The translations under genes and the position numbers were made by a program. The notes below the pieces were generated by a model. That model was not told where the DNA came from, did not search any database, and saw only the letters and a program-made list of their open reading frames with translations. A stretch of 64,000 nucleotides of DNA from positions 1 through 64,000 of the IMG/VR virus record IMGVR_UViG_3300005253_000455; one strand, written 5' to 3'. How positions within the stretch are numbered: the stretch's first letter is position 1; each line of letters begins with the position of its first letter. The DNA is from a virus. Shown here one piece after another: positions 22,460 through 59,641 of the stretch.

Positions 22460-22461
22460 GG

Positions 22462-23990: not shown

Positions 23991-24020
23991 TACCTACTCC
24001 TTTCAAGGTTTCTCAAAAAG

Positions 24021-33132: not shown

Positions 33133-33237
33133 TTAAGCCTTATTCCACTTCTTCAAAGCTGCTACTTCTTTCTCTCCTAGCTTTTCCTTTCTCTTAAAGA
33201 AGCTTTTGAAAAGAGCCCTAAATCTCACAACTATCAT
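33133..33237 (-). CDS. Possible small basic protein, 34 aa
   Basis: ATG 33237 opens MIVVRFRALFKSFFKRKEKL ... ALKKWNKA, overlapping the last 20 bases of the reductase gene in another frame. Amphipathic and very basic. The ribosome site is weak (GAGAATG context), which keeps confidence low; coupling to the reductase stop is possible. Confidence 0.4.
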   Translation of the reverse strand: MIVVRFRALFKSFFKRKEKLGEKEVAALKKWNKA

Positions 33238-40646: not shown

Positions 40647-40648
40647 TC

Positions 40649-44099: not shown

Positions 44100-44102
44100 A
44101 AG

Positions 44103-45617
44103 ATGGCAGAAGAAAGAACAGAAGAAAGAACAGAAGAAGTAAAAGCTGATGGGAATGGCTCAGAGGCTACTTTGAGTTTGAACAAAGGGCAGCTGAGAGC
44201 CTTGACTACGAGCCTAATAACTCGGGGCCGCCTTGCAGCTGAACTTGGCCAAACTTATGCGGGCAATCGAGACGTTTATGAAGTTCTTGGGTATGACAAG
44301 ACTTTAACTTTTGAGATGCTTGAGGCCCGATATAAGCGTGAGCATATTGCAAAGAGAATAGTCAATGCACCAGCAGCAGCCACTTGGAATAATCCTCCTG
44401 AAATCGTGCCAAAAGAAGATGGGGATAATAAAAGGAAGGGCAAAGAATTCTTGGAAATTTGGGAAAAGTTAATCAATCGCATCCACTTGTATTCAAAGAT
44501 TGAACGTGCAGATAAACTGGCGGGAATAGGTGAATTTGGCATTCTCTTAATTGGCCTTCGTGGTGGGGGTTCCCTTGAACATCCAGTATCCCGAAAGTTT
44601 ACAGCTGATGATCTGATGTATCTTTCTCCTTTCTCTCAAAAGGCTGCAACGGTTGAAACCTTCAGCCAAGATCCAACAAATGAAAGATTTGGAGAGCCTG
44701 ACCATTACAGAATACAAACTGGAAAGAATCTTGAGAATTTCAGAAGCTTTCAAGTAAAAACTCATTGGTCTCGAGTTATCCACCTAGCTGATGGCTTGCT
44801 TGAAAATGAAGTTTATGGAACTCCCCGCCTTGAGGCAGTTTTCAACCTTTTCAATGATCTTGCAAAAGTAGTGGGTGGCTCTGCTGAATTTTACTGGAGA
44901 ATTGCAGATCGTGGGCTTCATGCAGATATTACAGATCCAGAAGCAGAATTTGGGGAAGAGGATGAGAAAGCTCTTTCTACTGAAATCTCCAATTACATCC
45001 ATGGTCTTGATAGAGTCCTACAAACTCGTGGTGTTACTGTAAAGAGTCTTGGAGCAGAAACAGCAGACCCTCGTGGGCCTTTCCAGAATATAATCTCTTT
45101 GATTGCAGGTGCTTCTGGAATCCCACAAAGACTTCTTATGGGAAGTGAGAAAGGTCAATTGGCTTCTTCTCAAGACAAAGCAAGTTGGAACTCAGTGATA
45201 GAAGAAAGACAGCGCCTCTATGCTGAGCCTTATATTCTTCGTCCCTTTGTCGATAGATTAATTAAATGGGACATGCTTCCTGATATTGAGTATGAGGTCA
45301 GATGGCCTGTTGTCTTTCCACAGACTGAGGAAGAACGTTCTATCATTGCTGTTAGGATTTCAAGTGCCGCGAATAATATGGCCAAAGCTAAATCTCAAGG
45401 CGGGAAAGTAATCGCAGACAAGGAATTCAGAGATAAATATCTAGGCCTTAAAGATGAAGCTGAGATTCCTGAATTAGAAGAAGCTGAAAGAAAACAAAAA
45501 GAATTGGATGCTGAAATGAAGAAACAAGGAATAGTTCCTGGGATGCCGATTCCTGGAGAAGAAGGCAAAGAAGATGAGGGAGATAAAGATGAACAGGGTA
45601 ACACAGGAGATGCGTGA
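44103..45617 (+). CDS. Portal protein (DUF1073-like)
   Basis: 504 residues. ARYKREHIAKRIVNAPAAAT, ERADKLAGIGEFGILLIGL and FQNIISLIAGASGIPQRLLMG are blocks I associate with the DUF1073 family of phage portals. The C-terminal 50 residues are acidic and Lys/Glu-rich. It forms the dodecameric channel at the capsid vertex for DNA entry and tail attachment. Position after terL fits. Confidence 0.85.
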   Translation: MAEERTEERTEEVKADGNGSEATLSLNKGQLRALTTSLITRGRLAAELGQTYAGNRDVYEVLGYDKTLTFEMLEARYKREHIAKRIVNAPAAATWNNPPEIVPKEDGDNKRKGKEFLEIWEKLINRIHLYSKIERADKLAGIGEFGILLIGLRGGGSLEHPVSRKFTADDLMYLSPFSQKAATVETFSQDPTNERFGEPDHYRIQTGKNLENFRSFQVKTHWSRVIHLADGLLENEVYGTPRLEAVFNLFNDLAKVVGGSAEFYWRIADRGLHADITDPEAEFGEEDEKALSTEISNYIHGLDRVLQTRGVTVKSLGAETADPRGPFQNIISLIAGASGIPQRLLMGSEKGQLASSQDKASWNSVIEERQRLYAEPYILRPFVDRLIKWDMLPDIEYEVRWPVVFPQTEEERSIIAVRISSAANNMAKAKSQGGKVIADKEFRDKYLGLKDEAEIPELEEAERKQKELDAEMKKQGIVPGMPIPGEEGKEDEGDKDEQGNTGDA

Positions 45618-45702
45618 TAGAGCATGGCTTAAAGTAATGCACTATAGAAACCGTGCTCTCTTTGTAAGAATTCGAATTCTTGAAAAACGACTTTGGGGAT
45701 AA
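45610..45702 (+). CDS. Possible small basic protein, 30 aa
   Basis: ATG 45610 overlaps the end of the portal gene by 8 bases and reads RDRAWLKVMHYRNRALFVRI, then RILEKRLWG. Very basic. Upstream GGAG is directly next to the ATG, so initiation would rely on coupling. It fills the gap before the protease gene. Confidence 0.4.
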   Translation: MRDRAWLKVMHYRNRALFVRIRILEKRLWG

Positions 45703-45707
45703 ATAAC

Positions 45708-47258
45708 ATGAGAATAATGAAAGCAGCCACTGAGACTGTCCGACAGGAGACTTTTCAGGGCCGAGAATTTACAGTGGTTCCTGTCATTGCTCTCATTGAA
45801 GGAGTTATGCACGCGGCTAACTCATCGCAACCTGAACTTATCAAAGCCTCTGAGTTTGAGCCTGCTACCTGGAATGGTCGTCCTATTACCTTTGGGCACC
45901 CTGCTATAGGTGAAGTTCTAGTATCTGCAGCTGCTTCTCCTGAGGTTTTCGAGAAGGTAGCAGTTGGAACAATCTTCAACGCAACAATCATTAATGGTCA
46001 GAAGCTTCGGGTTGAGGCTTGGATTGATAATGAGAAGGTTGAAGATCAAGGAGAAGAAGCTGTTAAGGCTTTTGAAAGGCTCAAAGCAGGCGAAGCCATG
46101 GAGGTTTCCACAGGTTATTTTGCGGACACTGTTGCAGAGTCTGGCAAGTTCAATGGAGAAACTTTTGAGGCTATCCAGAAGGATATTAAACCAGATCACT
46201 TAGCTATTCTTCTTGGAGAAGATATTGGGGCCTGTTCTCTTGAAGATGGCTGTGGAACAAACAGAGTCAATTCAATCAGCTTTGAGAATTTCATGCAAGT
46301 TTGTGATCTCTCAAAAGAGCAAGTTGAAGTAGTGATTACTACGAACCAGGCCCAAAATGGAGAGACAACTTGGTATCCAGGAATTACTGGTTCAGTTGAA
46401 CCGGCAGAAGAAAAAAACAAAAACCTTTCAAAGATTCTCGCTAATTTGGAACTAAGATATAATGGTGAAATCTCTGATATGGATGTTCGAAGTGCTATCT
46501 CGTCAGCACTAGAAGCTAAGGGCGAGTTTTTCTGGAGTGTAGTTGCGGTGTTCCAAAGCAACTTCGTTTATGAGAAAGATTTTGGAACACTTAAAAGACG
46601 GGAGTATTCAATAGCAGAAGATGGAACGGTATCTCTTTCGGATGAAAGTGAAATCGTCCGACCTGTTACTGAATTTATACCTGTAAAAACCAATCAGGAG
46701 ACAGAAATGTCAAAGAAAGATGAAATGATCAAGGATCTCATTGCAAATGAGGCAACTCAATTCGCGGAAGGTGATCGAGAATTCTTGTCTACTTTGGATG
46801 AGACCAAACTCGGAATTTTGGCTCCAGTTGTGGTTGAAGCTGAGAAAGAAGGTGAGGATGAAGAAGCTGCAAAAGCAAAAGCAGTTGCTGAGGCCAAAAC
46901 TGAAACCGAGGAAGAAAAAGAATCTCAAGAGGTGAAAGATCCTGTGACAACTGAAGAATTCATCGCAGGTGCTCCTGAAGAGATTCAAGAAGTTCTGAAC
47001 CAAGGAGTAAGGTTGCAGAAAAAGCAACGTTCAACCTTTGTGAAAGCTATCACGAGTAATCAAGCTTCTGGTTTCACCGAAGAAGATTTGAAAGATTACT
47101 CAATGGAGCATCTTGAGAAACTGGCGCGAGCAACTGCCCCGAATGATTTCTCAATAAGAAGCAATCCTGTTTCCAATTTGGAAGATGATGCAGGAAAAAT
47201 TCCTTCGGCCCGACCTATCTGGGATCCGAAAGGTCAGAAAGTGAAACAAGCTTCTTAG
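45708..47258 (+). CDS. Prohead protease/scaffold fusion (DUF2213-like)
   Basis: 516 residues from ATG 45708, after TTTGGGGATAAATAAC. Residues 1-170 fit DUF2213 proteins (WNGRPITFGHP, HLAILLGEDIGACSLEDG), seen between portal and capsid genes and thought to be maturation proteases. Residues 334-516 are Glu/Lys/Ala-rich and helical, like scaffolding proteins. An in-frame internal start (46707) could release the scaffold part. It helps assemble and mature the prohead. Confidence 0.75.
   Translation: MRIMKAATETVRQETFQGREFTVVPVIALIEGVMHAANSSQPELIKASEFEPATWNGRPITFGHPAIGEVLVSAAASPEVFEKVAVGTIFNATIINGQKLRVEAWIDNEKVEDQGEEAVKAFERLKAGEAMEVSTGYFADTVAESGKFNGETFEAIQKDIKPDHLAILLGEDIGACSLEDGCGTNRVNSISFENFMQVCDLSKEQVEVVITTNQAQNGETTWYPGITGSVEPAEEKNKNLSKILANLELRYNGEISDMDVRSAISSALEAKGEFFWSVVAVFQSNFVYEKDFGTLKRREYSIAEDGTVSLSDESEIVRPVTEFIPVKTNQETEMSKKDEMIKDLIANEATQFAEGDREFLSTLDETKLGILAPVVVEAEKEGEDEEAAKAKAVAEAKTETEEEKESQEVKDPVTTEEFIAGAPEEIQEVLNQGVRLQKKQRSTFVKAITSNQASGFTEEDLKDYSMEHLEKLARATAPNDFSIRSNPVSNLEDDAGKIPSARPIWDPKGQKVKQAS
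46707..47258 (+). CDS. Predicted nested scaffold protein (internal in-frame start)
   Basis: ATG 46707 lies in the frame of the gene above and is preceded by CAGGAGACAGAA, a ribosome site as good as those of separate genes here. It would give 183 residues (SKKDEMIKDLIANEATQFAE ...), mostly charged helix. Lambda C/Nu3 uses the same arrangement. Inferred from the ribosome site and composition. Confidence 0.6.
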   Translation: MSKKDEMIKDLIANEATQFAEGDREFLSTLDETKLGILAPVVVEAEKEGEDEEAAKAKAVAEAKTETEEEKESQEVKDPVTTEEFIAGAPEEIQEVLNQGVRLQKKQRSTFVKAITSNQASGFTEEDLKDYSMEHLEKLARATAPNDFSIRSNPVSNLEDDAGKIPSARPIWDPKGQKVKQAS

Positions 47259-47284
47259 AACTTTTTTGAGAATTGTTCTAAGAA
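47252..47284 (+). other. Hairpin after scaffold gene
   Basis: TTCTTAGAAC (47252-47261) pairs perfectly with GTTCTAAGAA (47275-47284) around a T-rich 13-nt loop. The stem includes the TAG of the scaffold gene. No U-tract follows, so it is more likely an RNA processing or stability element that lets capsid genes be expressed more than upstream ones. Confidence 0.5.
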
Positions 47285-47316
47285 CTAACTAAAAATTTCT
47301 ATTGGAGAACGAGAAA

Positions 47317-47763
47317 ATGGCAGATAATATGATTCAACTCAAAGGTGAATTTATCCGAAAAGAATTGGCGGCTGCGGCTGGCATTTCTCCTGGACACCTT
47401 GTAGAACGTGATTCAAGTGGTGAGTTTGCTGTTCATTCAACCGCTTCGGGGCCGCATGGTAGTTGCTTCGCGGTTGAGAATGAACTGGAAGGCAGTAATC
47501 CTGATGTTGACTACACTGCGGGTGAGCGTGTTCAAGTCAACTATCAGGTGAAGGGAAATGAAGTAATGGCCATTCTTGCTGCTGTTCAGAATGTGGCAAT
47601 TGGAGCCTATCTCGAATCTGCTGGTGATGGAACCTTGCAAGCGCTCACAGCGCATGCTTCTGGTTCGGGGACAGATAGACAACCTGTTGGGGTAGCTCTT
47701 GAGGCAGTTGATCTTTCTGGCTCTGGTGCTGTTGATACGCCAATCAAGATCGAAATTGTCTAA
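47317..47763 (+). CDS. Putative capsid decoration protein
   Basis: 148 residues from ATG 47317 (an in-frame ATG at 47302 is possible). Beta-type, Gly/Ala/Ser-rich (GDGTLQALTAHASGSGTDRQ, AAAAGISPGHLVERDSSG), like DUF2190/head-stabilising proteins encoded just before the capsid gene. Placed between scaffold and major capsid genes. Would coat the outer capsid surface. Confidence 0.65.
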   Translation: MADNMIQLKGEFIRKELAAAAGISPGHLVERDSSGEFAVHSTASGPHGSCFAVENELEGSNPDVDYTAGERVQVNYQVKGNEVMAILAAVQNVAIGAYLESAGDGTLQALTAHASGSGTDRQPVGVALEAVDLSGSGAVDTPIKIEIV

Positions 47764-47831
47764 TTGATCTAACCATCTGTTTTTATATCTTCTGGGGCTG
47801 ATGAAGAACTAATCATTGGAGATAAGAAAAA

Positions 47832-48830
47832 ATGCCAGAAGAAATTGTACTAAATGCTCAGATAACGAGTGCCAAAGATTTAATGGCACAAAGTTCTACC
47901 GCGAGTATTCTCCTTGCTAATGGAATGAATGCAGAAGCATTGAGAACAAACGCTGCTCTGCGGAAAGATGAATGGGAAAGCTTCGATGAGGCTTTGATTG
48001 AAGAAGTGACCCAAAGGATGGTCGGAGTTGATGATTTGATGAGTCGTGGGCTCGTTCATAATATCCCGAATGGTATGGGTTCAACTACCATTGAATGGGA
48101 AACCGTGGATGAGACGAGAGAAGCTGAGGTCAATATGGATGGGATTGCAAGAGCGCAATCTGACCGTCTTGACTTTCAAACGTACAGCTTGCCTTTGCCC
48201 ATCATTCACAGGGATTTCTATATCAACTCTCGCGTCTTGGCTGCTTCAAGAACTCGTGGTGAGTCTCTTGATACAACCAATATGCGAATCGCTGCCCGCA
48301 AGGTTAGTGAGAAGGTTGAGCAGATTCTCTTTAATGGTATTTCCTATGAATTTGCTGGTGGGAATATCTATGGATATACCACCCATCCTCAAAGGAACAC
48401 TGTATCTCTCGGGACAAGTTGGACTGCTTCAGGTGTTGATGGTGATGATATTTTGGAGCAAGTTTTGAGCATGATCAATGCTGCTCATGGTGATCGAATG
48501 TTTGGGCCATATATCATGTATGTCCCGACTGCTTACTGGGTGAAGCTGCTTGAGGATTTCAAGACGAATTCTGATAAGTCGATCATGTCTCGTCTCATGG
48601 AAATCCCGACTTTGACGGATATCAAGGTAGCTGATTTCTTGACTGTTGACAACGTTCTTCTGATTCAAATGACGCAGGACGTTGTGGATATGGTAGTTGG
48701 GATGCAGCCTTCTACGGTTCAATGGGATACCCAAGGTGGGTTCTTGCTGAATTTCAAAGTGCTGACTATTATGATTCCGCGGATAAAAAGGACTGATGCG
48801 GGACGTAGTGGTATAGTGCATTTGAGCTAA
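47832..48830 (+). CDS. Major capsid protein (HK97 fold)
   Basis: 332 residues after TTGGAGATAAGAAAAA. LVHNIPNGMGSTTIEWETVD, SLPLPIIHRDFYINSRVL and the loop GYTTHPQRNTVSL are characteristic of encapsulin-like HK97-fold capsid proteins. No N-terminal protease delta domain is evident beyond residues 1-45. Position after scaffold and decoration genes supports it. Confidence 0.88.
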   Translation: MPEEIVLNAQITSAKDLMAQSSTASILLANGMNAEALRTNAALRKDEWESFDEALIEEVTQRMVGVDDLMSRGLVHNIPNGMGSTTIEWETVDETREAEVNMDGIARAQSDRLDFQTYSLPLPIIHRDFYINSRVLAASRTRGESLDTTNMRIAARKVSEKVEQILFNGISYEFAGGNIYGYTTHPQRNTVSLGTSWTASGVDGDDILEQVLSMINAAHGDRMFGPYIMYVPTAYWVKLLEDFKTNSDKSIMSRLMEIPTLTDIKVADFLTVDNVLLIQMTQDVVDMVVGMQPSTVQWDTQGGFLLNFKVLTIMIPRIKRTDAGRSGIVHLS

Positions 48831-48854
48831 TAATCACTAGGGAGATTAAGAGCT

Positions 48855-49322
48855 ATGCCAAAGTATCGTGTTAAGCCAAACCATAAACATTGGCACGGTG
48901 GAATCCTTTATCAAGGGAAAGTTCCTGGGAAACCAGCAGAGCATCCTGATGTATTAGACCTTGATGAAGAACGAGCTGGTAGGATTGCAAATAAGCTGGA
49001 ACTTCTTGGGGCACCTGTTCTACAAGAACTAGCTTCTGAGCAATCTAAAGTTGAAGAACCTGAGGAGAAGGCTCCAGAGACTGAATCTGAAGTTTCGGCG
49101 GTGCCTTCAGATTCGGAGCAAGCTCCGGAAGATTCAGATAAGGATTCAGAAGCACTCTCTGCGACTGAGCCTAAATCTGATAAACCGGCAGATGAGTCTT
49201 CTCCTCTTTCTGCTATTCATATTGGTAGCGGGAAATGGAATGTCATTCGAGATGGAAGATCCATCAATGATGTTCCTCTCACTGAAGAGGTTGCAAAGGC
49301 CCTAGCTGAAGGAGGTAATTAG
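48855..49322 (+). CDS. Hypothetical virion protein with acidic linker, 155 aa
   Basis: ATG 48855 after AGGGAGATTAAGAGCT. Residues 1-55 are a small beta domain (PKYRVKPNHKHWHGGILYQG), 58-118 a Glu/Ser/Asp-rich linker, 120-155 a short folded end. Between capsid and connector genes, so a capsid- or neck-associated protein is likely. Confidence 0.6.
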   Translation: MPKYRVKPNHKHWHGGILYQGKVPGKPAEHPDVLDLDEERAGRIANKLELLGAPVLQELASEQSKVEEPEEKAPETESEVSAVPSDSEQAPEDSDKDSEALSATEPKSDKPADESSPLSAIHIGSGKWNVIRDGRSINDVPLTEEVAKALAEGGN

Positions 49323-49324
49323 AG

Positions 49325-49699
49325 ATGAGTATTAGGGTTGATGAGCACGAAGTTCAGTTGATCGTCGATGTTCCTTCTGGTGAAGATATGAGTCTCTTTA
49401 TTGAAGTTGCTAGTCGCTATGTTGATAATGTTTTTGCTTCAACAACGTTAACGGCTGATCAACTTCGAGACATTGAACTCTATCTTAGTGCTCATCTTGC
49501 AACCCTGACAATTGATGGTGGCGGAGTGAGTTTGGAAAGGATAGGTTCAAGTTCCATTCAATATGCTCAGCTACAAGGCGATAAATTGTATTTGACACGC
49601 TTTGGACAACTAGCTATAATGCTTGATACAACTGGTAAGCTTGTAGCTAGTTCCAAAGAGAAAGCAAGATTCAGATCTTTTGGAGCAACGGTGTCATGA
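49325..49699 (+). CDS. Putative head-tail connector/adaptor
   Basis: 124 residues, starting 3 bases after the previous stop. LIVDVPSGEDMSLFIEVASR and a helix ELYLSAHLATLT, typical of small adaptor proteins that bind under the portal (gp6/gp15-like). The assignment relies on size, helices and position. Its 3' end contains a perfect promoter for the cassette that follows. Confidence 0.6.
   Translation: MSIRVDEHEVQLIVDVPSGEDMSLFIEVASRYVDNVFASTTLTADQLRDIELYLSAHLATLTIDGGGVSLERIGSSSIQYAQLQGDKLYLTRFGQLAIMLDTTGKLVASSKEKARFRSFGATVS
49592..49620 (+). promoter_or_regulatory. Consensus promoter P7 inside connector gene
   Basis: TTGACA at 49592-49597, 17-bp spacer, TATAAT at 49615-49620, all matching consensus, within coding sequence. 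About 120 bases upstream of the enzyme cassette that begins at 49749. No 12-bp element upstream. It could transcribe the cassette at times when the late operon is off. Confidence 0.75.
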
Positions 49700-49748
49700 T
49701 TGATGAATTTCCAATCTGAAAAAGAAAGAACAAACCTAGGGGCTATAT

Positions 49749-50363
49749 ATGGAATGGACAGTTCCAAAGATGTGGCCAGGGGCTACTTGTTATATTCTTG
49801 GAGGTGGCCCCTCAATGGCATATTTAGAGAAAGAAGATTTCGAGATAATCAAAAAGAAAAGAACTATTGTCACAAATAATGCTTACCAACTCGCTCCTTG
49901 GAGTGAAGTTCTTTTCTTTATGGACCATGATTGGTTCAAAAAACATGAAGTAAGTCTTGCTTCTTATCATGGTCTAAAAGTTACTATTGCAGTTCAGATG
50001 AAAGAGGGCAAAGGTATTAAATGGCTTAAAAGAGGATCAAAGGCTATGATCTCTCTTGACCCTTGTATTGTTAATAATGGTAATAACTCTGGACACTGTG
50101 CTGTCAATTTGGCCTACCATTTTGGTGTTAGTAAGATAATTCTTGTGGGCTTTGACATGAGAATTGTGGAAAGCAAACATAATTACCATGATAAGCATCA
50201 CCGGAAAATGAAAGATTCAATCTACCAAGATGAGTATATTCCGAATCTAGAGAGTATGAAGGAACCTCTTGAGAAGCAAAGTGTTCAGATTTTGAATGCT
50301 ACTCCTGAAAGTGCCTTGAAAGCTTTTCCATTTGTTGATCTCAAAAACACAATTAACCTTTGA
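49749..50363 (+). CDS. DUF115-like glycan enzyme
   Basis: 204 residues. CYILGGGPSMAYLEKEDFEI near residue 14 and NNSGHCAVNLAYHFGVSKII with VGFDM later are the two blocks of DUF115 (MptE-like / flagellin glycosylation-type) proteins, a Rossmann-like fold that handles nucleotide-activated sugars or pterins. First gene of the cassette and just downstream of promoter P7. Confidence 0.7.
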   Translation: MEWTVPKMWPGATCYILGGGPSMAYLEKEDFEIIKKKRTIVTNNAYQLAPWSEVLFFMDHDWFKKHEVSLASYHGLKVTIAVQMKEGKGIKWLKRGSKAMISLDPCIVNNGNNSGHCAVNLAYHFGVSKIILVGFDMRIVESKHNYHDKHHRKMKDSIYQDEYIPNLESMKEPLEKQSVQILNATPESALKAFPFVDLKNTINL

Positions 50364-50390
50364 TCAAAATTTGAACGAGTAGTTAAATCT

Positions 50391-51140
50391 ATGGCTAATC
50401 TAAAACCATCATTAATTAAATCATGCCTCTGTGGAAGATCAAATTTTATTCATTTCATTCACCAAAGTGATTCTTCCCAAATTCCAATCAGAGAATGTCT
50501 AGGTTGTGGAATTAAGCATCAACTTGTTCATTTGAATTATGAAGAATATCTGCAACAGTATATTTCCGATTATAGCCATTTTACTGGAAAAGATGGTGGT
50601 GAGTTAATATCTTCAGAACGATATTTGCATGATTTTAAATTAGCAGAGATAAGATATGAATCTTATAAACCATTTCTCCCAACCCAATCTGTTTTGCTTG
50701 ATGTTGGTTCTAGTAATGGGGCCTTTGTTGATTTTATGAACCAAACAGGAATGTGTACTGCAAGAGGTCTTGAAATTTGTGAAGAATATAATAATCGAAA
50801 AGTAACTTACTCAGGAGATTTCTTAGATGTTGAATTGCAAGATGATGCATTTGATGTGATTACAATGCATGATATTCTTGAACATTTTGTTAATCCTAGT
50901 GATGCTTTACTAAGATGTAATAGAATATTAAGAAAGGATGGTATTCTGATAATTGACTTTCCCGACTTCTTTTCCCGTTCTGGTTTTCATCATTGGAAAG
51001 TTATTGAGCATCTTTGGATGCTTCGCTTAAAAGATCTTAGATGGTTACTCAAAAATCATGGTTTCAAGATGATCAGAATTGATAAACCTATTCCTTCAAA
51101 GTTTGTTCTTATTTGTGGGTTTGGGGAGGAACATGAATAA
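50391..51140 (+). CDS. Class I SAM methyltransferase with N-terminal zinc knuckle
   Basis: 249 residues. Cys pairs CLCG and CLGCG at the start form a small zinc domain seen in sugar C-methyltransferases. LLDVGSSNGAFVDF is motif I, FDVITMHDILEHFVNPSDAL motif IV/post-IV with the D-x-L-E-H common in Methyltransf_23. Probably methylates a sugar or lipid-linked glycan. Overlaps the radical SAM gene by 8 bases. Confidence 0.8.
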   Translation: MANLKPSLIKSCLCGRSNFIHFIHQSDSSQIPIRECLGCGIKHQLVHLNYEEYLQQYISDYSHFTGKDGGELISSERYLHDFKLAEIRYESYKPFLPTQSVLLDVGSSNGAFVDFMNQTGMCTARGLEICEEYNNRKVTYSGDFLDVELQDDAFDVITMHDILEHFVNPSDALLRCNRILRKDGILIIDFPDFFSRSGFHHWKVIEHLWMLRLKDLRWLLKNHGFKMIRIDKPIPSKFVLICGFGEEHE

Positions 51141-52869
51141 AAATAGAATACTCTTTGGAGCATCTTATTCTGCAATTGAACCTCTTGGCCTCCTTCACTT
51201 AGGAGGTCTTGCTCGAGATTTAGGTTGGGAGCGATCTTATCACTTAGTTAAGGATCATAATTTTGAAGACTTTTTTGAGATTGTAAATGATTATAAACCT
51301 TTTGTGGTTGGTTTTAATGTTTACACAGGTAATCATTTACAACTGAAAGAAGCCTTTGAGCATTTAAAGAAAGATTATCCCGGGATAATGATAATTGTAG
51401 GTGGCCCACATCCTACATATTTTCCAAGAGAATCTAAAATCTTTGCAGATTATGTTGTGATGAGCGAAGGCTTTTATGCTCTTAAAGGAATATTAGAAGG
51501 TAGATTTAAATCAGCTATTTGGCCACCAAGAAAATCGGAAAGATTCCCTCATCCTGATAGAAAAACCTTCTATGATCTTTACCCTGAGCATGCAAATAGT
51601 AAAATCAAAAGCATCATAACAATGACGGGTTGCCCGTACACTTGCACTTATTGCTACAACTCTTCAAAACCTGAAGATATTGATGCACCTGAACTTTTAT
51701 CTGGAGTGACAGGCCGGCTCTTTCCTAATAACATTCGACCAGTTGAAGATGTAATCAAAGAAGGGTTAGAAATAAAAGAAAACTGGCCAACAGAAATTAT
51801 CTATTGCCAAGATGATGTTCATGGAATGGATACTAAGCATTGGCTTCCTGAATTTGTAAAGGAATGGAAGTCTAAAGTTAATCTTCCTTATCATGCTCAA
51901 ATGCGTTGGGAAATGACTAAAGGAGCAAATGGAACTCAAAGACTTGAAATGCTTAGAGAAGCCGGATGCTTCGGCTTGACTCTTGCTATTGAGTCTGCTG
52001 ATAAAGTAATAAGAAAAGAGATTCTTTCTCGTGGAATGGATCAGAGTACAATGTTCACAGGAATGAAAAAGTTAATCGACTTTGGATTCAAGGTAAGAAC
52101 TGAGCAAATTACTGGTCTGCCTTATGGAGCAACAAGTGAAATAACTCCAATGAATCTCCGAGCAGATTTAGACTTAGTTAAATTAAATGTAGATTTGAAG
52201 AAAATAACAGGTGGCCCGACAATGGCTTGGGCGTCAACCTTTGCTCCTTATCGAGGGACTAAGCTAGGAAGCTACTGTGAAAAGATGGGTCATTATTCAG
52301 GAGATAACAGTGATGTTCCTGATACATTTTTTGAAGAATCTATTTTGCGATTCCCAAGAAAATGGGTGGGTCTAGGTCTTGAACATTTCAAACACAATAA
52401 TGAACTTTGGTTAAGTGAATCTGAACTTAGTAAATATCGAAAACAGAACGCTGAATTACGGAGGATTTTCAATTTTGTATGTCTCGTTCCACGAGGGGAT
52501 GAATTGGCAGAGAATTACTTATTAACTGCTTCTGAGTTTAATTTCAATTGGCTTTCTATTTTCACAGATACTCATTTTCAAAACTTAGCAGCTTCTGGTG
52601 ACTATGAAGCTATTAAAACTCTTGATCTTTCAGAAAATTTGGAAAAACTCGGTGCTAAGAAAGATGTATCTCTCTATCTGGCTTGTTTACCGAAGGCTTC
52701 GTTGGCAGTTAGTAAAGTACAGGGATTGATTGATGAAAAATCTTTCTCAACAGCTATTCGTCATCATCTTTATGATAATGTTCTTTATAAAGATGATAAT
52801 ATGATTAATGAAATAGATTCATCCAGGGCATCAGATGGACGAAAAGACAACTTCAATATTAGTTCCTAG
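51133..52869 (+). CDS. B12-binding radical SAM protein
   Basis: 578 residues from ATG 51133 after GGGGAGGAAC. N-terminal 160 residues have the cobalamin-binding Rossmann pattern (GLLHLGGLARDLGW, VGFNVYTGN, IIVGGPHPTYF). TGCPYTCTYCYN gives the C-x3-C-x2-C that binds the [4Fe-4S] cluster, followed by a TIM-barrel (FGLTLAIESADKVIRKEILS). Such enzymes methylate unreactive carbons or rearrange substrates. Substrate unknown, probably a sugar or lipid. Confidence 0.85.
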   Translation: MNKNRILFGASYSAIEPLGLLHLGGLARDLGWERSYHLVKDHNFEDFFEIVNDYKPFVVGFNVYTGNHLQLKEAFEHLKKDYPGIMIIVGGPHPTYFPRESKIFADYVVMSEGFYALKGILEGRFKSAIWPPRKSERFPHPDRKTFYDLYPEHANSKIKSIITMTGCPYTCTYCYNSSKPEDIDAPELLSGVTGRLFPNNIRPVEDVIKEGLEIKENWPTEIIYCQDDVHGMDTKHWLPEFVKEWKSKVNLPYHAQMRWEMTKGANGTQRLEMLREAGCFGLTLAIESADKVIRKEILSRGMDQSTMFTGMKKLIDFGFKVRTEQITGLPYGATSEITPMNLRADLDLVKLNVDLKKITGGPTMAWASTFAPYRGTKLGSYCEKMGHYSGDNSDVPDTFFEESILRFPRKWVGLGLEHFKHNNELWLSESELSKYRKQNAELRRIFNFVCLVPRGDELAENYLLTASEFNFNWLSIFTDTHFQNLAASGDYEAIKTLDLSENLEKLGAKKDVSLYLACLPKASLAVSKVQGLIDEKSFSTAIRHHLYDNVLYKDDNMINEIDSSRASDGRKDNFNISS

Positions 52870-53749
52870 TGGAATTGGAGATATCTTTTGGATAATGGCA
52901 AAGATGGAATCTTTTCTCAAAGAACAAAATATTTCTAATCCCGAAATCTTTATTCAACAAGGTAATGGGGCGGATGGGATTATGAAACAAAGAGCTCTTC
53001 CTTTTATTGAGAAATTTTCCTTTGTAAAAGCTGGTGGTTATCTTATAACAGGGAATCAATTTCAAGCATTTAAGGATGGATATCTCCATGATAAAGCGAA
53101 TCTCTTTTACGATATTGCAGGATGTGATCTTTTTCTTACCTTTAATGGAAGCCTCAGAATGGGTAGGGAATTAGCTGATGTTTCTCCACAGTGGGAAACT
53201 AATTGGTATCCTGAAATGATTCGCTCAGATTATCAAATTCAGAAAGGAAAAGAATATAGTTCTAATTACGGCTCTTATGTAGTTGCTTACTTTGTTCCAC
53301 ATGGAATGTACCAAGGATGGTTAGTCCAGTTTCAAAAAGAAAAAATCTATGAATCAATGAAATCTATTGTTCGAGAAACTGGAAAGAAAATAATTCTTAT
53401 TGGAGCAACTTGGGATGATACTGAATTAAAAGATTTTTTTCTCCAAAAAGCAAAACAAGATAATCTTCAAGATTCTTTTATAAATCTAGTTGGGGAAACA
53501 AGTCTTGATGATATTCTTGCTCTCGTTGAAAATTGCAGTTTAATGTATGGGTTTCCATCTGGGGTTTCTTTCTTAGCTCCTTACTATAAAAAGCAAACTT
53601 TGATTCTTTGGAATGATTATTTCTGTGAGGATTTTCATTGGAATTGTGTTGTTCCTGAATCAAGAACTAATTGGTATCACGCACTTCAAACTTATAAACA
53701 TGATCTTAGAGTAGTTACTAAGAAACTCTTGGAGTGCTGTGATGCTTAG
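52835..53749 (+). CDS. Glycosyltransferase family 9-like protein
   Basis: 304 residues. ILVPSGIGDIFWIMAKMESF at the start is the GT9-type Gly-x-Gly-D loop; KIILIGATWDDTELKDFF and INLVGETSLDDILALVENCS with MYGFPSGVSFLAPYY form the donor domain. Overlaps the radical SAM gene by 35 bases and the next by 8. Similar in type to the gene at 40649. Confidence 0.7.
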   Translation: MDEKTTSILVPSGIGDIFWIMAKMESFLKEQNISNPEIFIQQGNGADGIMKQRALPFIEKFSFVKAGGYLITGNQFQAFKDGYLHDKANLFYDIAGCDLFLTFNGSLRMGRELADVSPQWETNWYPEMIRSDYQIQKGKEYSSNYGSYVVAYFVPHGMYQGWLVQFQKEKIYESMKSIVRETGKKIILIGATWDDTELKDFFLQKAKQDNLQDSFINLVGETSLDDILALVENCSLMYGFPSGVSFLAPYYKKQTLILWNDYFCEDFHWNCVVPESRTNWYHALQTYKHDLRVVTKKLLECCDA

Positions 53750-54437
53750 CTTTGAACATACTAATACTTTTCTTCTTTCCTGTGTGATGAAAAGTGGTGG
53801 AGATTTCAGTTGGGATCACGTTCGTAGATTGAAGATTGATCTTGATAAACACTTAACTTTACCTTTCATATTGTTTGTTCTTTCAGATCAAGCAATGCCA
53901 GAAGATTTATTGAAACAAAACTGTCAGTTAATTTTTCTAAGGCATAACTGGCCCGGCTGGTGGTCGAAAATTGAGTTATTTCGTTGCTTTGATGAATCGT
54001 TTTATTTTGATCTTGACACAGCTATTATTGACAATATTAATCATCTTGTTTCTTTTTCTCACAGGTTTTCTGCTCTACGTGGCTTCTATGGACGACCTTT
54101 CGGAAGTGGATTAATGGCTTGGAGTGGGAATTATAGATTTATCTATGAGGAATTTAAATTGGGGAATCCTCAAGTAATAATGAATTATTACAGACAAAAG
54201 AAATGGGGAGATCAAGAGTTTATTGGGGCAAGAATCAAAGAGCCACTCATTTTCCAAGATCAGTTTAAAGACGAAATAGTTTCTTATAAACTCCATGTGC
54301 AAGGGAAAGAACTTCCCAAGAAAGCTAAAATAGTTTGCTTCCATGGAAAACCAAGAATCCAAGATGTGAGTGAATCATGGTTAGAACAAAAAATATATTT
54401 AAAGCCTTTGCAGGAATCGCAGTTGCTACTCTTTTAG
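53742..54437 (+). CDS. GT-A-type glycosyltransferase
   Basis: 231 residues from ATG 53742. SFYFDLDTAIIDNINHL contains a D-x-D motif that would bind metal and nucleotide sugar; WPGWWSKIELFRC precedes it, and FGSGLMAWSGNYRFIY and WGDQEFIGAR follow, as in small GT-A transferases of phages and capsule loci. Its last 61 bases also encode, in another frame, the start of a lipoprotein. Confidence 0.7.
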   Translation: MLSFEHTNTFLLSCVMKSGGDFSWDHVRRLKIDLDKHLTLPFILFVLSDQAMPEDLLKQNCQLIFLRHNWPGWWSKIELFRCFDESFYFDLDTAIIDNINHLVSFSHRFSALRGFYGRPFGSGLMAWSGNYRFIYEEFKLGNPQVIMNYYRQKKWGDQEFIGARIKEPLIFQDQFKDEIVSYKLHVQGKELPKKAKIVCFHGKPRIQDVSESWLEQKIYLKPLQESQLLLF

Positions 54438-54514
54438 GGTGTTCACTTTCATCTTCAGATCCTAGCTTAGCAGATTTAGAAAAACAAAAAGAAGAAAGGC
54501 CTCTTTATATCTAG
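54377..54514 (+). CDS. Small lipoprotein, 45 aa, overlapping the glycosyltransferase end
   Basis: ATG 54377 in a different frame. A basic start (VRTKN), a hydrophobic segment and the lipobox T-L-L-G-C22 predict lipidation at Cys22, leaving a 24-residue mature peptide (SLSSSDPSLADLEKQKEER ...). Comparable to phage Rz1/o-spanin or superinfection-exclusion lipoproteins. The ribosome site is weak (GAGTGAATC), so expression may be coupled. Confidence 0.55.
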   Translation: MVRTKNIFKAFAGIAVATLLGCSLSSSDPSLADLEKQKEERPLYI

Positions 54515-54724
54515 ATGCACTGGGAATTTGAAGGGGCCATAGGATTAGATTCGCTCAATGAATGGGCATGGGAACATAGATGCAGAGCAATTGGTGGTAT
54601 TCCTGATTGGGCAAGAATTACAGTGAAGAAAGAAAAAGAGATGCAATTTATAGCTATGGGTTGTTTTTCTCCTGATGTTCTTCAAAAGATAAAGGAAAGA
54701 AAAAGGAAGGAGGGAAGAAAATGA
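54515..54724 (+). CDS. Hypothetical protein, 69 aa
   Basis: ATG 54515 directly abuts the lipoprotein stop. Aromatic N-terminal half (HWEFEGAIGLDSLNEWAWEH), basic C-terminus (KIKERKRKEGRK). No family recognised. Overlaps the sulfotransferase start by 4 bases. Confidence 0.55.
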   Translation: MHWEFEGAIGLDSLNEWAWEHRCRAIGGIPDWARITVKKEKEMQFIAMGCFSPDVLQKIKERKRKEGRK

Positions 54725-55380
54725 CAGTTGCCACCCCAATTCTAATTACTGGTGTCCCAAGAAGTGGGACTTCTATGGTTGCTGGTTGCTTTTCTATTTC
54801 TGGTGCTTGGACTGGAGAGACTATTGGTCCAGGTAAAGATAATACTAAGGGATTCTTTGAAAACAAAAAAATAAGGAAGCAAGTAGTTAAAAGCTATTTG
54901 AGATCAAATCCATTTGATCCTATGGGCCAAATAAACTTTCCACCTTTGAGACATTCAATAGGCCCGCAAGACCATCATCATTCTTCTTTTGTGCTTAGAC
55001 AAGTTAATGGAATCCTAGAAAATGAAGGATATAAAGAAGGTCCTTGGCTTTACAAAGATGCAAAACTTGCTCTTATGTGGACACTTTGGGCTGCAACTTA
55101 TAGAACTGCTAAATGGATTCTAGTGAGAAGGGATGAAAGAGAGATTACAGCCTCTTGCCTGAAAACTGGATTCATGAGAGTTCATAATACTGAAGAGAAT
55201 TGGATTGGGTGGATCAGAGAATATGAAAAAAGATTTGAGCCTTTAAAAGAAAGCTGCCAGGTCTATGAACTCTGGCACCATGATATAGTTGATGGAAGCT
55301 TCGAACCACTTGAGGTTGCAATTAAAAGTTGTGGCTTGAATTGGGATGAAGAGAAAATCAAGGACTTTATCATTAAATAA
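54721..55380 (+). CDS. Sulfotransferase family protein
   Basis: 219 residues. ITGVPRSGTSMVAG at 8-21 is the phosphosulfate-binding loop; WILVRRDEREITAS near 137 matches the 3'-phosphate site (R-D/N-P-x-x-x). FENKKIRK and YKDAKLAL add family resemblance. Last gene of the cassette: it could sulfate a glycan made by the preceding transferases. A different subfamily from the gene at 14427. Confidence 0.8.
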   Translation: MTVATPILITGVPRSGTSMVAGCFSISGAWTGETIGPGKDNTKGFFENKKIRKQVVKSYLRSNPFDPMGQINFPPLRHSIGPQDHHHSSFVLRQVNGILENEGYKEGPWLYKDAKLALMWTLWAATYRTAKWILVRRDEREITASCLKTGFMRVHNTEENWIGWIREYEKRFEPLKESCQVYELWHHDIVDGSFEPLEVAIKSCGLNWDEEKIKDFIIK

Positions 55381-55435
55381 ATTAATGTTTATTTTCATCA
55401 AGAGTTCTTGTGAATAAAAATAATAAGGTAGTCTA

Positions 55436-56539
55436 ATGTCTTTAATCCGTATAACTGAAAATGATGTAATCCCTCTCGCCTTGCAATTGGAAGATGGTGA
55501 CGTAGGAAAATTTCCTCAAGCTATAGTTCGAGATGATGGTGGAAATGAACTTGGCGGCAGCCCATATGATCTTACACATAAAGGAGATGGATTTTATAGT
55601 TCAACATCTTTAGTTATGACAAGTGATCCTTTTATCAGTGCAGTTTACATAGTTTACAATGAAATTGGTCACACTACTGAAAGTGTTAGTCATTTAAGAT
55701 CAAATGATATTTTTCTCTTAAACACAAGCATCGTTTGGGATGAAGTAGTTGCTGATCACCAAGGCGATGGTACTTATGGTGGTGAAGTAGCAACCAAAGC
55801 AGATATACAAGCAGCTACAAGTACTCTTGAAGTAGTTGCCGATTCAGGTACAGCCGTTCAAGGTACTGTAATTTCTGGGACTTATGTTTCAACTGCAGTT
55901 AGAGATAATACATACTGGCAAATACAAGAGGACGCATCAAATGGTATCACAGTGGAATTTATATTCACGATGTCTGATCCTGACTGTAAGCCTGGAGTAT
56001 TTGAAGTTTTTGGTAGGTATGAAGGTGTGCCTAGTAAATCTCATTACCAAGAATTGTGGGCATGGAATGTTGAAAGTGCAGCATGGGAGCAACTGATTGA
56101 GATATTTATGCCAGGAGGAATCACAAGTGATGCCACCTTCCAGCATGAATACTACGAACGACATATTAATAGGCCAACTCAGGAAGTTAAAATTAGAGTA
56201 ATCCATAATATCACTTCTTATAATGGTACTCATAATATATACTTTGATTCAGTACGCTTAAGTTGTATAATAGTAATAACTGCCGCTGATATAGCGGATG
56301 CTGTCTGGGAAGAAGCTGCGGCAGATCATGAAATAGCAGGAACCACTGGGGCCAAGTTGAGACTGATGGAACAGATTTTAAGAAACAAAATTGTCACTGA
56401 CCCAGTAACTGGAATCATGACTCTTTATGATGATGCTGGAGGGGTTCTTTTGACTGCTCAATTATATGAAGAAACTGGAACTGGTCAAGCTTATCGTGGG
56501 CAAGGAGCAGAAAGACGTGAAAGGCTTGAGGAGCCATGA
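55436..56539 (+). CDS. Putative virion structural protein, 367 aa
   Basis: ATG 55436 after AATAAGGTAGTCTA. N-terminal 90 residues form an Ig-like beta domain (IPLALQLEDGDVGKFPQAIV), then a linker TSIVWDEVVADHQG and a carbohydrate-binding-like beta sandwich (NTYWQIQEDASNGITVEF). The stretch VWDEV-ADH recurs near residue 290 as VWEEA-ADH. Ends with a charged tail. Between cassette and head-tail genes; likely a capsid or neck appendage. Confidence 0.6.
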   Translation: MSLIRITENDVIPLALQLEDGDVGKFPQAIVRDDGGNELGGSPYDLTHKGDGFYSSTSLVMTSDPFISAVYIVYNEIGHTTESVSHLRSNDIFLLNTSIVWDEVVADHQGDGTYGGEVATKADIQAATSTLEVVADSGTAVQGTVISGTYVSTAVRDNTYWQIQEDASNGITVEFIFTMSDPDCKPGVFEVFGRYEGVPSKSHYQELWAWNVESAAWEQLIEIFMPGGITSDATFQHEYYERHINRPTQEVKIRVIHNITSYNGTHNIYFDSVRLSCIIVITAADIADAVWEEAAADHEIAGTTGAKLRLMEQILRNKIVTDPVTGIMTLYDDAGGVLLTAQLYEETGTGQAYRGQGAERRERLEEP

Positions 56540-56694
56540 TAGTAACAAGAGGAATAGGAGGCCCGAGAAATGGGAGTATAGTTGCCTCAGGTTACACTAT
56601 CGCGGCTTTGGCTATTATTGTTACTACTTTTAGAGATCTTATTAGATTCACTTTGAGAGTTGGTCAATCAATCAAATTTAATTTAGAAAGGTAA
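56536..56694 (+). CDS. Small membrane-type protein, 52 aa
   Basis: ATG 56536 overlaps the upstream stop (ATGA). Gly-rich start, hydrophobic helix at 16-31 (VASGYTIAALAIIVTT), then a basic amphipathic end SIKFNLER. Its tail resembles the end of the 489-aa protein at 58944 (SFNLEL). Not in a lysis context; function unknown. Confidence 0.55.
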   Translation: MIVTRGIGGPRNGSIVASGYTIAALAIIVTTFRDLIRFTLRVGQSIKFNLER

Positions 56695-56697
56695 ATA

Positions 56698-57114
56698 ATG
56701 GCTAATTTTAGAATTACAGATTTAACGCGCAATCAATTAGTGCAGCAAATACAGATTGATATTGATGCAGGTGCGGGGCCGGGAACTATCAAGATTTATG
56801 ATGGAGCACAACCAGCAGATGCAGATGATTCTCTTCCTTCTGGTACAACTTTATTGGCTCAACTTACATTCAATGATCCTTCTGCTCCAGGGGCAGCCGC
56901 TGGTGTACTTACTTTTAGCGCGATTACAGAAGATTCTTCAGCGGACGATACAGGTACAGCAACCTGGGCACGGATTGAGGACAGTGACGGTAATACAATT
57001 TTTGACTGCGATGTGGGAATAGCAGCAGCCACAATTATTCTGAATAGTGTGGCTATTGTGATCGGGGGACCGGTTGATATTACTAGTTTCACTGTAACTG
57101 TTCCGGCTGGTTAA
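56698..57114 (+). CDS. Phage structural protein, 138 aa
   Basis: Starts 3 bases after the previous stop. The pattern IKIYDGAQPADADDSLPSGT ... LAQLTF ... TGTATWARIEDSDG ... DCDVG is a common phage structural family (jelly-roll-type, unknown exact role) that I recognise by its conserved order. Probably on the capsid or tail surface. Confidence 0.7.
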   Translation: MANFRITDLTRNQLVQQIQIDIDAGAGPGTIKIYDGAQPADADDSLPSGTTLLAQLTFNDPSAPGAAAGVLTFSAITEDSSADDTGTATWARIEDSDGNTIFDCDVGIAAATIILNSVAIVIGGPVDITSFTVTVPAG

Positions 57115-57148
57115 TCTTGAATGTGCTTTTGACAGGAGAAGATGTGTA

Positions 57149-57475
57149 ATGTTTCAACTAACAATCATGACACCTGAAGGAAAGAAAGCGGACTACACTT
57201 TCTCGGAAACGAGGTTTGAGACAATCCGCAATTTCTGTAAGGCGTGCAAACAGGAATACCACGGCGGAACATATATCGGCGTTGATTTCACAGCACCTGC
57301 TCACGCTCGCGTCGAATTTGACAACGGAAAACGCTACATTGTGCCACCCGATGCGCTCGCGAAATTAACAAGTTACTTGACGACTGTGGAAATAGCGGAA
57401 TGGGAACGGTGGGGATCGAAAGAGGCCAAACTTATGTCGGTTTTTTCTGACGACATCCAGAAGGATGGCTCCTAA
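57149..57475 (+). CDS. Hypothetical protein, 108 aa, GC-rich codon use
   Basis: ATG 57149 after CAGGAGAAGATGTGTA. Mixed alpha/beta (FETIRNFCKACKQEYHGGTY, ARVEFDNGKRYIVPPDALAK) with CKAC. Codons are noticeably GC-richer than in the genes before and after, so it is part of an imported block with the first two thirds of the next gene. Function unknown. Confidence 0.6.
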   Translation: MFQLTIMTPEGKKADYTFSETRFETIRNFCKACKQEYHGGTYIGVDFTAPAHARVEFDNGKRYIVPPDALAKLTSYLTTVEIAEWERWGSKEAKLMSVFSDDIQKDGS

Positions 57476-58944
57476 TGGCTCAACTCAGCACAGTCTACGC
57501 AGAGGAAAATACCACGCAGACACATACAGGAGACTTAAATTGGCTGACCGCACTTACTGTTCCGGGGGCCTCGTTTGAAGATTCCACGAATTATCTTATG
57601 TTGGTGCGAGCCCAGGTAACAGGCAACAACACTAGCCAGCTTTTCGGCTGGCGCACACAGATCGGAGGGGTGACGCCAAAAGGAGCGTTGCATATTCAGG
57701 AGCCAGCAAGTTCTCTTCCAACTCGCCGCTATAGTTACATTTTCTTACACAAATTCACAACGGCGGCAACTGCCGAGGACGTAACATTTGATATTCAGAA
57801 CTTCACCGATGCGACAAAAATTGTACTAGCAGATACGATTACAGTTTTTGCAATAAATCTGGACGAATTGACGGAAACGGATTGGTACTATGGCGAGGAC
57901 ACCACAACCGAAGATCACCCCACCATTTCAACATGGCAGGATCAGGCATCAATAACATTTACACCTGGAAACGCGTCTGACGATTGGTTAATTTTGGCAG
58001 GGGGCGGCGTGATAGTAAATAACACCACGAAGGAATGGCGTTATCGAATAAACTTTGATTCAGACACAGAGATTGTACCTGATCTAGCACAAGAAGGTGA
58101 AGATACAGCCGAATTAATATCATGGATGTTGGCACGGCCTTACACGTTATCCACTGCGGAACACACCTTCACTGTGCAATCAAATGATGATAGTGATGTC
58201 GGGGATGAAAACCAACATGACATAAGCAAGATATTTGCCCTGCGTCTCAACGCATTTAAAGAGCATGCGGTATTTTGGAGCGAAGTTGAAATCCCAGGAA
58301 CTCTTGGATTCAGCGAAATTGCTGATATGGTATTCACTCCAACAGATACAGGAAACGGTGTTCTCATCGGGTCAGCTGAATTTGGTACGGCAAAATTCGG
58401 CCCGGTTACTATTCGCACACAAGTTGATGATATAAGTGTGCCAGAAGGGAATGACGGCGCTTTTATTGCCGATTCATTCGATAATTCCGACATTCTTTTT
58501 ACACCAGCCTTAGCGCGTTTTCCAACTACTGCAGATGTGGAAGCGGATGTTGATGTTGATGCCGCAGTCTTTCAAGTGCCGGAACACACCATAGTGTATC
58601 GCGGATTTGCTTCATGGTCACTTGAATTGGTGTCGGTTGGAGGCTTTACCGGCACAGGTGATGGAACTCTTGATGCTCTTATCGGAGTAGCATTTGGAAC
58701 ACATGGCCAAATAGGTATTGGAACTGGAGATATAGATGCTATTATTGGATCTGCTTCTGGCAACATAGGAGTTACTGGAGTTATTACAGATTCAGAGATT
58801 ATAAGATTCAATTTGAAAATGGCCCAAAATCCATCTTACATTCAAAAGGTGAATCAATCTCCCAAATCAAATTTGATGATAAGAAAGAATCTTTCTTTTG
58901 AAAGAGAAATAGGAAGAAACAATTCATTTAACTTGGAACTCTAA
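57475..58944 (+). CDS. Large structural protein, 489 aa, mosaic composition
   Basis: ATG 57475 overlaps the previous stop. Residues 1-385 form repeated beta-sandwich units (DWLILAGGGVIVNNTTKEWR, GVLIGSAEFGTAKFGPVTIR) with GC-rich codons. From about 58620 a Gly-rich repeat (GTGDGTLDALIG, GTGDIDAIIGSASG) and a basic tail follow in AT-rich codons like the rest of the genome. The C-terminal piece therefore seems original and the N-terminal part grafted on. Surface role likely. Confidence 0.6.
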   Translation: MAQLSTVYAEENTTQTHTGDLNWLTALTVPGASFEDSTNYLMLVRAQVTGNNTSQLFGWRTQIGGVTPKGALHIQEPASSLPTRRYSYIFLHKFTTAATAEDVTFDIQNFTDATKIVLADTITVFAINLDELTETDWYYGEDTTTEDHPTISTWQDQASITFTPGNASDDWLILAGGGVIVNNTTKEWRYRINFDSDTEIVPDLAQEGEDTAELISWMLARPYTLSTAEHTFTVQSNDDSDVGDENQHDISKIFALRLNAFKEHAVFWSEVEIPGTLGFSEIADMVFTPTDTGNGVLIGSAEFGTAKFGPVTIRTQVDDISVPEGNDGAFIADSFDNSDILFTPALARFPTTADVEADVDVDAAVFQVPEHTIVYRGFASWSLELVSVGGFTGTGDGTLDALIGVAFGTHGQIGIGTGDIDAIIGSASGNIGVTGVITDSEIIRFNLKMAQNPSYIQKVNQSPKSNLMIRKNLSFEREIGRNNSFNLEL

Positions 58945-58945
58945 A

Positions 58946-59266
58946 ATGCATGATGAAATACACCAGAATGATATTGGAACTAAGTTCACAGTTTTCTTAG
59001 TAGATGAAAATCAAACACCTCCAGAAGTTGATTTAGAGGGAGCAACAATTCTTGAGATTCGGTTCAAGAAACCTGGTGGAGCAGTAGTCGTTCAGACAGC
59101 TTCGATTCCTTCTGCTTCTGGAACAGTAGATGGAGAGATTGAATACATCACAGTAGATGGAGATTTAGATGAAGTTGGCATGTGGAAGATAAGAGGAAGA
59201 GTGGTTCTTCCAACAGGAACATGGACTTCTTCTGAGGATACATTTAAAGTGAATGCGATTTTCTAA
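58946..59266 (+). CDS. BppU-like / Ig-like tail-associated protein, 106 aa
   Basis: Starts one base after the previous stop. TKFTVFLVDENQTPPEVDLE, ILEIRFKKPGG and WKIRGRVVLPTGTWTSSEDT match the small beta-sandwich found in BppU N-terminal domains and phage Ig-like proteins. Precedes the head-closure gene. Probable minor structural component. Confidence 0.65.
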   Translation: MHDEIHQNDIGTKFTVFLVDENQTPPEVDLEGATILEIRFKKPGGAVVVQTASIPSASGTVDGEIEYITVDGDLDEVGMWKIRGRVVLPTGTWTSSEDTFKVNAIF

Positions 59267-59288
59267 CTTAAGATTTAAAGGGTGAACG

Positions 59289-59624
59289 ATGAGTTTTTTG
59301 ACCAAAAATCTTAGACAGAAAGTAACTCTTTGGAGGCAGGCTGCAGCCAAAGATGATTATGGGAACTTGACTTATTCTACTCCCATAGTGATAAAAGGAA
59401 GGTGGGAAGAACGAGCAGTTCTAAGAAAGGATTTAGATGGCCGAGAGATAGTTGCAAATGCAATGGTTTTCTTAGCTATTGATGTAAAGAAAGGGGATTA
59501 TTTATTTCTTGGGATTGATACAACTGCTTCTCCTGTGACTGTAGATGGGGCGAATGAAGTTCAAGATTTCAAGAAAACTCCTTCTTTAAATGGAAGAAGG
59601 TTCGAGCGAGTTGCGATTCTTTAG
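59289..59624 (+). CDS. Head closure / head-tail joining protein (SPP1 gp16-like)
   Basis: 111 residues. LRQKVTLWRQAAAKDDYGNL and VIKGRWEERAVLRKDLDGRE are typical of head-tail joining proteins that close the connector after packaging. Followed by HK97 gp10-like and tail terminator genes in the standard order. Confidence 0.8.
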   Translation: MSFLTKNLRQKVTLWRQAAAKDDYGNLTYSTPIVIKGRWEERAVLRKDLDGREIVANAMVFLAIDVKKGDYLFLGIDTTASPVTVDGANEVQDFKKTPSLNGRRFERVAIL

Positions 59625-59641
59625 TTCAACTGAGAGGAACA

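Follow-up and report, generated by a model that had tools for sequence, protein, structure and literature searches.

A lineage-wide cassette of predicted glycan-modifying genes between the capsid and neck genes of a phage

The DNA considered here, which we call the window, comprises bases 1–64,000 of the IMG/VR virus record IMGVR_UViG_3300005253_000455, itself 69,883 bases long. Our subject is a cassette of eight genes in that window, all on the plus strand, at positions 49749–55380. On one side it is bordered by the gene for a head–tail adaptor-like protein, Ad1 (49325–49699, plus strand; phrog_302, 8.5e-5), whose homologs adjoin the cassettes of relatives, and on the other by structural-type genes that begin at 55436; neck and tail genes lie downstream of these. 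A first-pass annotation, made without database searches, described a set of enzymes between the connector and the later head–tail genes, and family searches bear it out. The genes encode, in order, a DUF115/MptE-like glycosyltransferase, a class I S-adenosylmethionine (SAM) methyltransferase (MT), a B12-binding radical SAM enzyme, a GT9-like and a GT8-type glycosyltransferase, a small lipoprotein, a protein of 69 amino acids (p69) and a sulfotransferase (ST).

The DUF115 protein (49749–50363) matches phrog_4603 at 2.6e-42, and scores 33.4 bits against the Pfam MptE-like family, slightly below the cut-off of 34.6. Single-protein phmmer searches of the Protein Data Bank (PDB) gave nothing reliable for this protein or for the radical SAM protein, and so profiles were used for comparison with known structures. 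When 23 DUF115 homologs were combined in a profile, it matched the sialyltransferase CstII (2e-5); CstII is likewise the top Foldseek hit (prob 1.00) of an AlphaFold (AF2) model with a pLDDT of 89.7, followed by Methanocaldococcus jannaschii HPPK and human ST8SiaIII. The protein has the sialyltransferase-type (GT42/CstII) fold, with GGGPS and SG...GxDM motifs present; genes for the synthesis of nonulosonic acids were not seen in the window cassette. It is likely to be the first, acceptor-choosing transferase. The methyltransferase (50391–51140; Methyltransf_23, Pfam 1e-17) is likely to be a sugar O-methyltransferase. The radical SAM enzyme (51133–52869; B12-binding 9e-18, Radical_SAM 4e-14) is taken up below. 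The GT9-like, or heptosyltransferase-like, protein (52835–53749; heptsyl_trn_II 5e-5) falls below the Pfam cut-off on its own; its profile matches ADP-heptose heptosyltransferase II (1psw) at 1.6e-5, over about 80 residues only, and TibC, a glycosyltransferase known to be a protein heptosyltransferase, weakly (0.054). The GT8-type protein (53742–54437; phrog_1962, 1e-35), a relative of phage P1 PmgQ, has the GT-A type with a DLD (DxD) motif that is largely conserved, and its profile matches GT8 structures and glycogenin at 0.002–0.005. The 45-amino acid lipoprotein (54377–54514) carries the lipobox LLGC, which suggests a Gram-negative host, and p69 (54515–54724) is without a convincing match in domain and family searches. 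Last comes the sulfotransferase (54721–55380), of the type that uses 3'-phosphoadenosine 5'-phosphosulfate (PAPS). It matches Sulfotransfer_3 at 2.1e-6 (28.6 bits; cut-off 27), its 5'-PSB (RSGTS-type) and 3'-PSB (RR...S) motifs are conserved across 14 homologs, and it is customarily the last gene of the cassette. By hydropathy the enzymes have no membrane segment (maximum 19-residue value 1.44) and are soluble, and no flippase, polymerase or lipid-carrier transferase was seen among the annotated genes.

Related functions occur elsewhere in the window. A second sulfotransferase (Sulfotransfer_2, 2.3e-12) is encoded far from the cassette, at 14427–15092 on the minus strand, and a P-loop kinase at 4869–5441 (minus strand), with a sub-threshold match to APS_kinase (0.0036), could bear on PAPS supply. 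Upstream of the gene for the terminase large subunit (TerL), the product of 40649–41575 is weakly GT9-like (hhalign E 1e-4, prob 58), and that of 39885–40646 has no family match; the G+C content of 39885–41575 is 0.37.

The cassette genes were said to overlap one another, and at five of the seven internal junctions they do: methyltransferase and radical SAM by 8 nt, radical SAM and GT9 by 35, GT9 and GT8 by 8, GT8 and lipoprotein by 61, and p69 and sulfotransferase by 4. The DUF115 and methyltransferase genes are separated by 27 nt, and the lipoprotein and p69 genes abut. The G+C content of the cassette, 0.356, is the minimum among 117 stretches of the same size in the sequence, against 0.430 in the upstream head genes; the window as a whole stands at 0.39, with its highest 2-kb value (0.478) at 22001–24000. 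The perfect sigma-70 promoter reported by the first-pass annotation, TTGACA-17-TATAAT (49592–49620, plus strand), lies within the adaptor gene, and 128 nt separate it from the start of DUF115. Three such sites occur in the window, all with 17-base spacers, where 0.05 would be expected with spacers of 16–18 allowed. The other two (24366–24394 and 32932–32960) are on the minus strand, in intergenic gaps. An ordinary promoter scan of 44000–60000 performed at chance level (38 sites versus 35.5 expected), and for this reason only the perfect sites carry weight. Judged from the sequence alone, the cassette's own promoter is statistically real. In relatives, the 300 bases that precede DUF115 contain no more promoter-like sites than random stretches do, and the promoter is therefore a trait of the window phage rather than of the locus.

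That the enzymes form one glycan-modifying pathway was part of the original suggestion, and comparison with relatives supports it. A scan anchored on GT9, and so independent of the capsid, yielded 56 non-redundant loci. The methyltransferase is fused to both GT9 and GT8 in a single protein in 31 of these, and to GT9 in 17. Gene order is conserved as well: DUF115 precedes GT9 in 29 cases and follows it in none, and the corresponding ratios are 43:4 for GT9 before GT8, 35:1 for GT9 before the sulfotransferase, and 32:1 for the sulfotransferase before Ad1, so that the order DUF115–MT–GT9–GT8–ST–adaptor is nearly fixed. The strongest argument for a shared pathway comes from fusion and order together.

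The cassette is not a recent acquisition of one phage. A scan of IMG/VR with the single major capsid protein (MCP) sequence found nothing; an alignment of MCPs, used thereafter, recovered 80 loci. These include 49 complete, non-redundant MCP-to-neck intervals, of which 33 contain DUF115. It is accompanied by GT8 or sulfotransferase genes in 19 (median 5.5 kb) and stands alone in 14 (1.4 kb); 15 intervals (0.87 kb) have neither DUF115 nor GT8. On a 62-tip MCP tree, a DUF115-led version of the block lies between the major capsid and neck genes in 46 tips, with only three changes of state, and because of this we regard the cassette as an old, variable, lineage-wide locus. The block is missing from the window's neighbours on the tree—L009, Brevundimonas phage MaInes (L003) and L038, united with the window by a weakly supported node (93/38)—and from an outgroup of 12. 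In MaInes the counterparts of Ad1 and of the head closure gene Hc1 adjoin, and the site is empty. In most relatives the adaptor gene comes after the cassette; the window and L122 (MCP 53% and DUF115 46% identical) have it in front. The earlier view of a single inserted moron does not survive this comparison. Two features expected of a moron are present, namely a promoter of its own, as read from the DNA, and an empty site in a phage with the same flanking genes; confinement to a few members is not, most MCP relatives being carriers.

The contents of the locus vary greatly between relatives. The exact gene set of the window was met nowhere else. Cassettes of relatives also hold other genes of sugar chemistry, for GT-D, GT2 and GT29 transferases, FkbM methyltransferases, radical SAM enzymes, UDP-glucose dehydrogenases, other dehydrogenases and transketolase halves, and, in L011, a heptose-7-phosphate kinase (7.9e-81). 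Four of them (L013, L015, L017 and L034) combine a split transketolase with zinc dehydrogenase and short-chain dehydrogenase/reductase (SDR) genes, possibly a pathway to an unusual ketose or branched sugar. Such differences in content would be expected if the head-gene junction were simply a tolerant insertion site, and the cassette mobile cargo whose target has nothing to do with the virion. The low G+C content beside flanking head genes at 0.43 would fit too, as would absence from the neighbouring clade of L009, MaInes and L038. Against this are the mere three changes of presence on the MCP tree, the nearly fixed gene order, and the 14 intervals in which DUF115 alone is retained at this position; we consider mobile cargo distinctly unlikely.

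What sugar might be involved is suggested by the radical SAM enzyme. A B12-binding domain is followed in this protein by a CxxxCxxC radical SAM domain, with an invariant CPYxCTYC at residues 167–174. Its profile matches, weakly and partially, AprD4 (1.6e-4) and TokK (8e-4), B12-linked radical SAM enzymes of which the former acts in the biosynthesis of apramycin, an aminoglycoside sugar; the family of the window protein differs in its context, which is one of ADP-heptose genes. (A structure model was poor—pLDDT 57, from five sequences only—and was discarded.) The family is rare. Apart from the window it was found in one other viral contig (L002, 62% identical over the part available) and in a few genomes; of 371 genomes from the phylum of the Pacearchaeota relative, 6 have it at the cut-off used. 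In each of the six archaeal loci examined, the neighbourhood includes ADP-heptose genes (RfaE domains I or II, GmhB, GmhA) together with genes that resemble heptosyltransferases, and in the window the radical SAM gene overlaps the GT9-like gene. On these grounds we predict that the enzyme modifies a heptose; methylation, dehydration and rearrangement are all possible. A gammaproteobacterial copy (L091:559–3171) carries an intein (1.5e-13) near the CxxxCxxC motif. The window also encodes a B12-dependent ribonucleotide reductase (33218–35380, minus strand) which, alongside the B12 radical SAM enzyme, suggests a host that contains cobalamin.

For the target of the glycan, the company that DUF115 keeps is informative. 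A DUF115-anchored scan found 80 loci. Of these, 25 have the window-type MCP, 15 have D3/S20-type genes, 34 have a T4-type arrangement, a class defined by open reading frame-length patterns of which one member (L200) was checked, and 6 are of other kinds. In L200 the major head protein gene (phrog_138) lies 1.8 kb from DUF115. DUF115 thus adjoins MCP genes in head modules that are unrelated to one another—those of Pseudomonas phage D3, of Tetraselmis viridis virus S20 and of the T4 type—and it is this recurrence that favors a virion target over host lipopolysaccharide (LPS) or DNA.

A host-surface target deserves consideration nonetheless. The cassette could alter the LPS inner core, and the resulting change of receptor could block superinfection or ease the release of progeny. 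GT9 resembles the heptosyltransferases of LPS, whose site of action is the cytosolic face; the closest structure to DUF115, CstII, is a sialyltransferase of lipooligosaccharide; the block encodes a lipoprotein; and its own promoter could permit earlier expression. Yet the genes are locked to capsid and neck genes across lineages with unrelated head modules, no membrane enzyme or flippase was seen among the annotated genes, and the position in the late operon of relatives leaves little time for exclusion. We judge this explanation unlikely.

DNA is a third conceivable target, the transferases decorating hydroxymethylated bases. Glycosyltransferase- and sulfotransferase-based DNA modification has been proposed for phages, and operons with both kinds of enzyme were predicted to serve it (Iyer et al. 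2013, as cited in PMC10829341). The window itself encodes a ParB domain fused to a DNA methylase (10405–11748, minus strand). A hydroxymethylase of the thymidylate-synthase type (PF00303), however, is absent from the window record and from 11 relatives, by a search that was positive in MaInes and nine control genomes; a search, run without a positive control, found no match to TET/JBP or HMUDK; and the genes sit with head genes, not replication genes. We regard base hypermodification as highly improbable.

We favor, with modest confidence, a soluble, late-expressed pathway that would glycosylate at least one virion protein in the cytoplasm, either ahead of assembly or in its course. Besides the placement next to capsid genes, the conserved order and the fusions, the fold of DUF115, the solubility of the enzymes, the sugar genes of other cassettes, the heptose context of the radical SAM family and the negative PF00303 search speak for it. 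DUF115, acting like the flagellin-glycosylating Maf proteins, would begin the glycan by placing a sugar on a protein of the head or neck. Chain extension would fall to GT9 and GT8, the sugar added by GT9 probably being a heptose, and the B12 radical SAM enzyme would alter that heptose, whether still nucleotide-bound or already transferred. Caps would be added by the methyltransferase and the sulfotransferase, and exchange of the middle genes between phages would make the glycan phage-specific. The likely benefit would be one of particle surface chemistry: stability, masking or attachment. Candidate acceptors include the structural-type genes between the cassette and the head closure gene (55436–59266, plus strand); 56698–57114 is a virion structural protein (phrog_3758, 1.2e-29), and the other genes of this stretch are without family matches. 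The product of the gene after MCP (48855–49322, plus strand) is a candidate acceptor or docking protein. Its C-terminal domain of about 36 amino acids (GxYDVIN..G.PIND..L; 49215–49322) was seen only in cassette-bearing loci, with homologs in L019, L023, L029, L039 and others.

Several observations weigh against glycosylation of the virion. Adjacency to capsid genes could reflect shared late timing alone, and in CcrColossus a similar set lies between tail and lysis genes, away from the capsid gene. The lipoprotein has no role in the scheme. Of two features of the MCP-neighbour protein, the C-terminal domain follows the cassette in raw counts, but on the tree the agreement comes down to only three to four supported, independent pairs and is not significant (p 0.125); the Ser/Thr-rich linker, considered as a glycan acceptor, shows no link to the cassette (p 0.82).

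Glycosylation of phage virions is already known; the version predicted here, sulfated and with a heptose and a radical SAM enzyme, would be new. Virion proteins of mycobacteriophages (capsid and tail tube) have been shown by experiment to be glycosylated (Freeman et al. 2023, as cited in PMC12619734). The likeness lies in glycans on virion proteins, demonstrated there and predicted here; the set here is DUF115, GT9 and GT8 with a methyltransferase, a B12 radical SAM enzyme and a sulfotransferase. The first-pass annotation knew of no described phage system with this set. For the exact set this holds, and searches of the open-access literature yielded no description of the capsid-side cassette, of its hypervariability or of its heptose/radical SAM version. 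Shorter sets do exist, in the same place or elsewhere among late genes. D3 and its kin have a DUF115-type gene (orf7, of putative role) between the major head gene and Ad1, as in relatives of the window, though a single one and in an unrelated head module. S20 has a pair of DUF115 genes with two glycosyltransferases and one methyltransferase (TVGG_00041-00049) between the capsid region and Hc1, in another head module, with no B12 radical SAM, GT9 or sulfotransferase gene annotated. Phage P1 has DUF115-type and GT8/PmgQ-type genes together, as in the window (pmgO, pmgP and pmgQ; hdmB-D in P7). These differ in lying in a tail/late region with a phosphatase, and no heptose, radical SAM or sulfotransferase genes are annotated. 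They are not needed for lytic growth (PMC10695390), which fits what a decoration would predict. CcrColossus gp126-131 is a shorter set of the same kind among late genes, with putative functions. A parallel in role is offered by Maf flagellin glycosyltransferases and flagellar glycosylation islands (PMC13317340), where a transferase acts in the cytoplasm on a self-assembling structural protein and the neighbouring sugar genes are hypervariable; those systems are cellular, take flagellin as target and use nonulosonic acid donors.

Two further features of the window may be recorded. The TerL gene (41586–44099) is probably split by an intein, placed at the Walker A motif (GSGK...T) and bearing a LAGLIDADG domain (LAGLIDADG_3, 3e-7), and 7404–10031 (minus strand) encodes a uracil-DNA glycosylase domain fused to DNA polymerase A.

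A broader proposal, tentative and perhaps doubtful as a whole, is that a serotype-like, hypervariable glycan island is fixed beside the capsid genes of one large phage lineage and of several unrelated lineages; that their virions display diverse sulfated and methylated sugars; and that in this phage the glycan contains a heptose altered by a new family of B12 radical SAM enzyme, which DPANN archaea also have. The DUF115 genes of D3 and P1 bear database names only, for instance ‘alpha-2,3-sialyltransferase’ or ‘putative morphogenetic function’. The radical SAM family offers a concrete biochemical prediction, a modified heptose. If the proposal is true, the surface chemistry of the particle would be a selected trait that surveys of sequence have missed.

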